64,000 nt of DNA, taken from assembly GCA_947474005.1 (NCBI GenBank), contig CANJHI010000005.1:1-64000 (forward strand). The letters run 5' to 3'. Both the position numbers and the translations under genes were made by a program. The DNA comes from Alphaproteobacteria bacterium (GTDB lineage: Bacteria; Pseudomonadota; Alphaproteobacteria; Reyranellales; Reyranellaceae). The notes beneath the pieces were generated by a model, which did no database searches, was not told the DNA's origin, and saw only the letters and a list, made by a program, of their open reading frames with translations. Shown piece after piece: positions 58,174-60,519 of this stretch (positions within the stretch are counted from its first letter, which is position 1; every line of letters begins with the position of its first letter).

Positions 58174-58202
58174 AAAAAAACGCCGGGCCAACGGGCCCGG
58201 CG
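58174..58202 (-). terminator. Strong Rho-independent terminator
   Basis: Minus strand CGCCGGGCC-cgtt-GGCCCGGCG followed by TTTTTTT. Confidence 0.9.
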
Positions 58203-58290
58203 AGTTAAACAGGGAGGCTTCACGTCTGGGAGACGTGGGATCAAACGGATCCCGAGTTTCGATAACGATCAGAACAAACTTTTCGTATCG
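58174..58290 (-). ncRNA. Candidate small RNA (or lysR 3'UTR-derived RNA); 5' end unknown
   Basis: Three consecutive hairpins on minus strand: GGGATC-CGTTT-GATCCC, CACGTCT-CCC-AGACGTG, then unpaired AAGCCTCCCTGTTTAAC and the terminator. Confidence 0.55.
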
Positions 58291-58406
58291 AAGACCTGAG
58301 GCAAACTTATTCCTCGCGAGGCGTATTGGTAGAGGCTAAGTGTGGAATACAGGGATGCGGGGAGCGCATGCCTTTCACTGCCTATGCAATCCTGCAGGTC
58401 TAAACA

Positions 58407-59297
58407 TCAGAATCGTGTCTCCGCGACCTTCCGCAGGAGGAAATCGCGGAATACGGCGATGCGTTTGGAGTGCCGCAGCTCCTCCGGGTAGGTGAAATAC
58501 ACATCGGTCGTACGGACATTGAGGTCCGGCAGGACATTCTCGAGCTTCGTCGACTCGCGGGCGAGGTAATCCGGCAGCGAGGCAATGCCGAGGCCCGATT
58601 CGACCGCCCGGAAGATGCCATAGACATTGTTGACACGCAGCACGACGACCCGGGCCGACGGGTCGACATTACCTTCGCGCAGGAGCCAATTGACGTCCTG
58701 GACCGGCGCCCGGGCATCCTCGCCGAAGATGATCAGGCGGTGCTGGTCGAGTTCCTCGACGGTCTTGGGCTTGCCGTACTTCTGGATATAGCCATGTGAG
58801 GCATAGACATGGCTGCGCACGGTCAGCAGGTGCCGCTGCACGAGCCCTGGCTGGCGCGGCATGACCATGCGGATCGCCACGTCGGCTTCGCGCATGCCGA
58901 GGTCGAGTTCGTTGTCGGAAAGCACGAGGCTGACGTCGATGTCGGGATACATCGCGATGAATTCGTGCATCTGGGCGGTGAGCCACGTCGAGCCGAAACC
59001 GACGGCGGCCGTCACCTTCAGGCGACCCGCCGGCTTGTCCTGGTTGGCGCGCAACAGCGCCTCGGCCGTATTCACCTTGCTCGCCATATCGCGCGCGGTG
59101 CGATAGAGCAGCTCACCCTGCTCGGTCAGGATGAGACCCCGCGCATGGCGGTGAAACAGCATGACGCCGAGCTGTTCCTCGAGCGCGCCGATCTGGCGCG
59201 AGATCGCCGACTGGCTGAGCTTCAGGGTTTCGCCGGCGTGCGTGAAGCTGCCGGCGTCGGCTACGGCCTGGAAGATCCGCAGCTTGTCCCAGTCCAT
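58407..59297 (-). CDS. LysR-family transcriptional regulator
   Basis: 296 aa; MDWDKLRIFQAVADAGSFTHAGETLKLSQSAISRQIGALEEQLGVMLFHRHARGLILTEQGE. Confidence 0.95.
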   Translation of the reverse strand: MDWDKLRIFQAVADAGSFTHAGETLKLSQSAISRQIGALEEQLGVMLFHRHARGLILTEQGELLYRTARDMASKVNTAEALLRANQDKPAGRLKVTAAVGFGSTWLTAQMHEFIAMYPDIDVSLVLSDNELDLGMREADVAIRMVMPRQPGLVQRHLLTVRSHVYASHGYIQKYGKPKTVEELDQHRLIIFGEDARAPVQDVNWLLREGNVDPSARVVVLRVNNVYGIFRAVESGLGIASLPDYLARESTKLENVLPDLNVRTTDVYFTYPEELRHSKRIAVFRDFLLRKVAETRF

Positions 59298-59357
59298 GAC
59301 ATCGCCTCCCTAAGGCGTTTGGCGTGGCGCGCCAAACGCCGATCCCTCATCGCCAGC

Positions 59358-60329
59358 CTATTCGGCAGCCTGCGCGACACGCGCCTCCCGGCTCGCCAAC
59401 CACTTCTCCGCCTCGAGCGCAGCCATGCAGCCGGTGCCTGCCGCCGTGACGGCCTGGCGGAAAATCTTGTCCTGCACGTCGCCCGCGGCGTAGACGCCCT
59501 CGACGTCGGTCGCCGTCGAGTCCGGCTTGGTGATCAGGTAGCCTTCGCTGTCCATGGCCAGCTTGCCCTTGAACAGCTCGGTATTGGGCGAGTGGCCAAT
59601 GGCGATGAAGACGCCGTCGGTGGTGAGTTCCTGCTCGACGCCGGTCTTGACGTTGCGTGCCCGTACGCCCGTGACCAGCGGCGCCGGCGCCTTCTCTCCC
59701 AGGATTTCCTGCACCGCATGATCCCACAGCACGGTGACCTTGGGATTCTTGAACAGCCGTTCCTGCAGAATCTTCTCGGCACGGAACGAATCGCGGCGAT
59801 GGACCAGTGTTACCTTCGAGGCATGATGCGTGAGGTAGAGAGCCTCCTCGACGGCGGTATTGCCGCCACCGACGACGACCACTTCCTTGCCCCGGAAGAA
59901 AAACCCATCACAGGTCGCGCAGGCCGAGACACCGCCGCCGCGGAACGTTTCCTCGGTCGGCAGCCCAAGCCATTTCGCCGTGGCGCCGGTGGATATGATG
60001 AGCGTATCGGCCTCGTAGCGGTCGCCCGAGTCGCCGAGACAGACGAACGGCCGGCGGCCGAGATCGACCTCGACGATGGTGTCGAAGAAAAGCTCGGTGC
60101 CGACATGCTCGGCCTGCTTCTGCATCTGCTCCATCAGCCAGGGACCCTGGATGACGTCGGCGAAGCCCGGATAGTTTTCGACATCCGTTGTGATGGTGAG
60201 CTGGCCGCCCGGCTGAATGCCCTGCACCAGCATCGGCTTCAGACTGGCACGAGCGGCATAGATCGCCGCCGTGTAGCCCGCGGGGCCTGACCCCAGAATA
60301 AGCACTTTACCACGATGAGTTGCTGCCAT
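59358..60329 (-). CDS. trxB: Thioredoxin-disulfide reductase
   Basis: GSGPAGYTAAIYAARASLKPMLVQG, CATCDGFFF redox motif; start trimmed to MAATHRGKVLI. Confidence 0.96.
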   Translation of the reverse strand: MAATHRGKVLILGSGPAGYTAAIYAARASLKPMLVQGIQPGGQLTITTDVENYPGFADVIQGPWLMEQMQKQAEHVGTELFFDTIVEVDLGRRPFVCLGDSGDRYEADTLIISTGATAKWLGLPTEETFRGGGVSACATCDGFFFRGKEVVVVGGGNTAVEEALYLTHHASKVTLVHRRDSFRAEKILQERLFKNPKVTVLWDHAVQEILGEKAPAPLVTGVRARNVKTGVEQELTTDGVFIAIGHSPNTELFKGKLAMDSEGYLITKPDSTATDVEGVYAAGDVQDKIFRQAVTAAGTGCMAALEAEKWLASREARVAQAAE

Positions 60330-60519
60330 GTGCGTCCCGCATCCCGCCATCCGCATATCTCTTACATATATGCAAACCTCGCCGCGGATGCACGACCTGA
60401 TGCACGTCCGAGTACGTTTTCCGCGCAATTGTTCACGAAGCATGCGCCAGTTCTCGCAACTTTATTGCGCAGATGGCATGGTTCTGGCATAGAGCGCGGC
60501 CAACGGAGGAACCTCGAAG

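Follow-up and report, generated by a model that had tools for sequence, protein, structure and literature searches.

A Putative LsrB-Activated Anti-Shine-Dalgarno Small RNA Gene Downstream of trxB and lysR in a Reyranellaceae Genome

In the window, i.e., the whole 64,000-nt stretch of DNA analyzed here, a gap of 354 nt separates lysR (58407) from the DUF6492 gene (58052; PF20102), and the locus raises the question of whether this gap harbors an independent small RNA (sRNA) gene or an RNA derived from the lysR 3′UTR, the two origins considered for a candidate sRNA in the initial annotation. Comparison with related genomes indicates that it most likely holds a real, deeply conserved sRNA gene within a conserved regulatory locus (Table 1), and that this gene most likely has its own LsrB-type promoter. 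It is quite probable that the trxB–lsrB/vtlR–sRNA locus encodes an LsrB-activated, trans-acting anti-Shine-Dalgarno (anti-SD) sRNA similar to AbcR1 and SorY.

Table 1. Features predicted at the trxB–lysR–sRNA locus (positions in the window).
Feature	Position	Strand	Basis
trxB, thioredoxin reductase	59358–60443	−	TIGR01292, 410 bits (cut-off 343)
lysR, assigned LsrB/VtlR ortholog	58407–59297	−	Best PDB match 9HH1
LysR-type operator dyad ATGC-N7-GCAT (T-N11-A)	58355–58369	−	Dyad recurs across genomes
LsrB/VtlR box GCAT-N3-TG-N3-T (GCATCCCTGTATT), −61 to −49	58346–58358	−	Published consensus and position (PMC7486931, PMC8844928)
Weak −35-like CTACCA of putative activator-dependent promoter	58327–58332	−	Sequence; 17-nt spacing
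−10-like TAAGTT, offset 60–65 from dyad	58304–58309	−	TA..T conserved across loci at the same offset
Predicted primary sRNA (~124 nt)	58174–58297	−	Start from conserved −10 spacing; end from terminator
Hairpin 1, GGGATC-CGTTT-GATCCC	58237–58253	−	Sequence and covariation
Hairpin 2, CACGTCT-CCC-AGACGTG, CUCCC in loop region (first anti-SD)	58221–58237	−	
Single-stranded AAGCCUCCCUGUUUAAC, main anti-SD seed (AAGCCTCCCTGTTTAAC at 58220–58204)	58204–58220	−	Unpaired in core fold
Intrinsic terminator, 9-bp GC stem (58202–58181) and T7 (58180–58174)	58174–58202	−	Terminator search and covariation

Structure and Conservation of the RNA

The 68-nt core of the RNA folds at −29.7 kcal/mol (z = −5.96 against shuffles), and the 93-nt segment and the full 124-nt transcript have z-scores of −4.50 and −4.73, respectively, with no shuffled sequence as good as the full transcript. 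The 5′ 56 nt alone have an ordinary fold energy (z = −0.47 against shuffles) but are nonetheless fairly conserved within the genus. The initial annotation described three hairpins with perfect stems at 58174–58290. Every one of these elements was recovered on the minus strand, but hairpins 1 and 2 share the C at 58237, so their full 6-bp and 7-bp stems are mutually exclusive. The start of the element is probably near 58297 instead of 58290. The exposed CCUCCC motif was confirmed, as CCUCCCUGUU is unpaired in the core fold and lies directly before the strong terminator.

A plain DNA search showed that 45 of 48 genomes of the same genus carry the sequence, and it also matched the 3′ half (query positions about 61–127) in other orders. 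In an alignment of 45 sequences, double-sided changes occurred in 14 of the 17 tested pairs, and 84.4% of cells were paired compared to 79.5% in shuffles and 28–46% in slid controls; none of 500 shuffles attained any of the covariation measures. Double changes affect all five modelled pairs of hairpin 1 (63% of cells paired) and three of the six pairs of hairpin 2 (96% paired). The initial annotation had allowed for the possibility that the terminator alone would be conserved among relatives. The opposite was observed: the loop, the stems, and CCUCCC are also retained, and the helices covary with compensatory changes, which together strongly support a trans-acting alphaproteobacterial anti-SD sRNA. 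The seed AAGCCUCCCUGUUUAAC is almost invariant among relatives, although its invariance in alignment A1 is partly by construction because the loci were chosen by the seed word; the plain DNA search agrees on the conservation of CCTCCCTGTT.

The covariance model R2, built on loci chosen by the exact word [GA]CCTCCCTGT with no selection for the stems, matches 143 of 289 sampled alphaproteobacterial genomes across the class. These represent 109 of 223 genera, and each matched genome holds one to six copies. An R2 match and a LysR ortholog are both listed for 106 genomes, and in 82 of these the RNA is on the same strand and at most 600 nt downstream of lysR. Genomes with the RNA downstream of LysR relatives include Reyranella, Kiloniella, Tistlia, Magnetovibrio, and Sneathiella, among others. 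The RNA does terminate the lysR transcript, and its hairpins could in principle do no more than form and stabilize the lysR mRNA 3′ end, having no role in trans. This explanation is extremely unlikely, as the CCTCCCTGTT seed is retained in distant orders while the terminator stems vary, and additional copies of the RNA occur far from lysR.

Copy number varies among the matched genomes. At the Sneathiella-like loci L085, L087, and L107, lysR is followed by the RNA in triplicate, arranged in tandem. Several R2 copies are also found in small-genome alphaproteobacteria (G283, G293, G062, G111, and G227), none of them adjoining a listed LysR ortholog.

Promoter and Operator

The initial annotation reported no convincing promoter, and a sigma-70 consensus scan of the locus likewise identified none. 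Comparison across genomes, and only this comparison, revealed an operator and a −10 element. Of 80 genomes, 58 carry the dyad ATGC-N7-GCAT in the interval from lysR to the RNA, and the other 22 lack an exact dyad; shuffles gave a mean of 0.34 and a maximum of 3. The dyad also occurs in 13 of 40 lysR loci lacking an R2 match, and most of these 13 have anti-SD words downstream. Alignment of 69 loci on the dyad yielded an extended operator, AG-N-Y-ATGC-N7-GCAT-R-N-C, together with another conserved TG. At offset 37 there is a T that hardly varies, and a −10-like TA..T occupies offsets 60–65. Compared to these 69 loci, the window operator is one base off the pattern (GCATC versus mostly GCATG/A), and the −35 region of Reyranella differs from the class consensus T-G-G. 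The conserved offset places the −10 element TAAGTT of the window at 58309–58304 and the predicted start at an A at 58297, and with this start the LsrB/VtlR box of the window falls exactly at −61 to −49. The published LsrB/VtlR box, GCAT-N3-TG-N3-T, is located at −61 to −49 of abcR1 (PMC7486931, PMC8844928). By eye, loci of Pleomorphomonas and Roseibium bearing the ar15 RNA have a similar box (GCAT-N3-AG-N3-T) and a similar −10 spacing.

Since a conserved operator and −10 element lie between lysR and the RNA, an independent gene is favored over a product of the lysR 3′UTR, while a processed or read-through form may also occur. Alternatively, RNase E may cut the RNA from the lysR (or trxB–lysR) mRNA with no promoter of its own being involved, as in the case of SorX. 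SorX provides a precedent for a 3′UTR origin, being processed from the mRNA of RSP_0847, a member of the OmpR family (PMC6238624), and it is also the best Rfam match of the window. Furthermore, the terminator search identified no additional terminator in the interval from lysR to the sRNA, and consequently any read-through from lysR must include the sRNA. However, an operator and −10 element at fixed spacing in most genomes would be needless for a purely processed RNA, and for SorY, relatives of which occur at the LysR locus in one family, transcription from a gene of its own has been reported (PMC8307010). A purely processed origin is thus considered unlikely.

Two genomes of the same genus carry a second LsrB-type dyad close to a ferredoxin-like gene (L344, G001:C174:8549; L328, G005:C165:15081), where a −10-like TATAA lies about one helical turn farther away.

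The LysR Regulator and Proposed Mechanism

The window LysR matches PDB entry 9HH1, a cryo-EM structure, with an E-value of 5.8e-94, compared to 3.5e-31 for the next structure. This entry is LsrB of A. tumefaciens (PMC11975290), and by sequence the window LysR is assigned as an ortholog of LsrB/VtlR. In A. tumefaciens, the gene order is trxB, vtlR/lsrB, abcR1, abcR2, and in S. meliloti abcR1–abcR2 likewise follow lsrB (PMC7486931). Given this order in rhizobia, the window RNA holds the position of abcR1.

The window LysR contains no cysteine, and therefore the thiol sensing proposed for the A. tumefaciens protein cannot apply to it. Cysteine-free LsrB orthologs account for 59 of the 81 compared, and where the A. 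tumefaciens protein has its redox cysteines, the compared orthologs mostly have V, I, or T.

From the anatomy of the locus and homology to characterized systems (i.e., RNA structure with covariation, synteny, the operator, the −10 element, their spacing, and LysR homology), we infer the following mechanism. The LsrB/VtlR ortholog would bind the dyad at 58355–58369 and activate a weak promoter just 3′ of its own gene, and transcription from this promoter would yield an sRNA of about 124 nt with its 3′ end at 58174. The sRNA may present CUCCC in a hairpin loop and the single-stranded CCUCCCUGUU beside the terminator. These anti-SD words would pair with the SD regions of target mRNAs, probably with Hfq, and the pairing would repress translation, as for AbcR1 and SorY. 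AbcR1/2 (PMC8844928) and the ar8 RNA SisA (PMC12559287) act through anti-SD words of the CCUCCC type.

Relationship to Known RNA Families

An Rfam covariance search, suggested in the initial annotation, revealed a resemblance to SorX and SorY but no match reaching a family threshold. The best match of the window was SorX (RF02784; 36.5 bits, E = 1.8e-6, gathering cut-off 46.6), for which the window locus is the only strong locus in the genome, and SorY (RF02651) scored 23.8 bits against a gathering cut-off of 111. Neither ar15 (RF02345, searched up to E = 10) nor suhB/ar8 (RF00519) matched the window. The RNA sits at the position of AbcR1, yet is of a sequence type below every Rfam threshold. 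An ar15 search of the 289 genomes gave no match and is uninformative, as its controls were also silent. Downstream of the LysR ortholog, on the other hand, Rfam ar15 was found above the cut-off in Pleomorphomonas (L113) and as weak calls at L108, L110, L101, L111, and L109; in the Roseibium loci L101, L109, and L111, R2 overlaps the sub-threshold ar15 matches. In family f24, three genera have SorY/SorX-type RNAs at this place after the LysR ortholog, including a SorX match above the cut-off (L266).

The closest parallels are AbcR1 and AbcR2 (ar15; Sinorhizobium, Agrobacterium, and Brucella), which likewise follow trxB–lsrB/vtlR, have an LsrB box at −61 to −49, and are about 120 nt in length. 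They also carry one anti-SD word in a hairpin loop, one single-stranded anti-SD word, and a terminator, equivalent to the CUCCC loop and CCUCCCUGUU of the window RNA. However, their anti-SD words (CUCCUCCC and UUCCCCUC) differ from those of the window, they form a tandem pair as opposed to a single copy, and the window RNA escapes their Rfam model and follows a LysR without cysteine. SorY of Rhodobacter resembles the window RNA in having CCUCCCUGUU adjoining the terminator and its own promoter, and SorY-type RNAs have the same LysR upstream in the three genera of family f24. SorY is, however, reportedly controlled by alternative sigma factors and is separated by the score given above. SorX of Rhodobacter shares the order AUCCC–hairpin–CCUCCCUGUU–terminator, but is derived from the 3′UTR of an OmpR-family gene, whereas the neighbor of the window RNA is a LysR gene.

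The MmgR/SisA-D RNAs (ar8) share CCUCCCU ahead of the terminator with the window RNA, and ar15 and suhB belong to one Rfam clan. Membership of the window RNA in ar8 is nevertheless very improbable, as the ar8 10-mer UUUCCUCCCU is absent from the window (AAGCCUCCCU), suhB has no match there, and the neighboring gene is different. Moreover, the genome encodes a separate true ar8/MmgR RNA (L269, G000:C99:9016-9088; 63 bits) adjoining a gene for FGase (N-formylglutamate amidohydrolase), and ar8 is located beside an FGase gene in other species as well (PMC12559287). The Cuckoo/CcsR RNAs have an anti-SD motif in common with the window RNA, and all of their hairpin loops contain CCUCCUCCC (PMC3927594). 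Membership in this group was rejected, as not all hairpin loops of the window RNA bear CCUCCUCCC.

We therefore hold that the window RNA should not be filed under ar15, SorX, SorY, or ar8, while judging from its anatomy it probably works like AbcR1 and SorY. AbcR1, the SorY-type RNAs, and the window RNA may well be descendants of one ancestral alphaproteobacterial module of LsrB, operator, and sRNA. Under such a single origin, which we find somewhat more plausible than separate ones, the regulator, the operator, and the anti-SD seed would have been kept while the remaining RNA diverged beyond single family models. Searches of an open-access literature library found no report of this RNA in Rhodospirillales. 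If the proposed reading is correct, the LsrB/VtlR–AbcR circuit, hitherto known chiefly from work on virulence and symbiosis in rhizobia and Brucella, would reach about half of the sampled alphaproteobacterial genera, including free-living Rhodospirillales, which suggests that its ancestral role was general nutrient-uptake or translation control, not host interaction. The interest of the locus lies in this breadth and in the joining of separately named RNAs with separate Rfam entries, and the operator can be tested in any of those RNA loci.

Potential Targets

AbcR-type RNAs bind Hfq and repress ABC-transporter mRNAs. Sites of the form ACAGGGAGG-N3-11-ATG were searched for in 15 genomes, with CTCGGGAGG as a control seed. 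The sites include several solute-binding proteins, three of them in the genome of the window, in addition to other genes. Transporters were not enriched, as solute-binding proteins (classed by reading) made up 6 of 27 sites compared to 5 of 20 with the control seed, and no target class is claimed because the control matches an equal share.

Within the locus, the SD region of lysR (59298–59320) carries AGGGAGGC, which is exactly complementary over 8 nt to GCCUCCCU of the sRNA; this complementarity is restricted to Reyranella and was not found outside the genus. As a guess from this pairing, the sRNA might exert feedback on lysR through its SD region.
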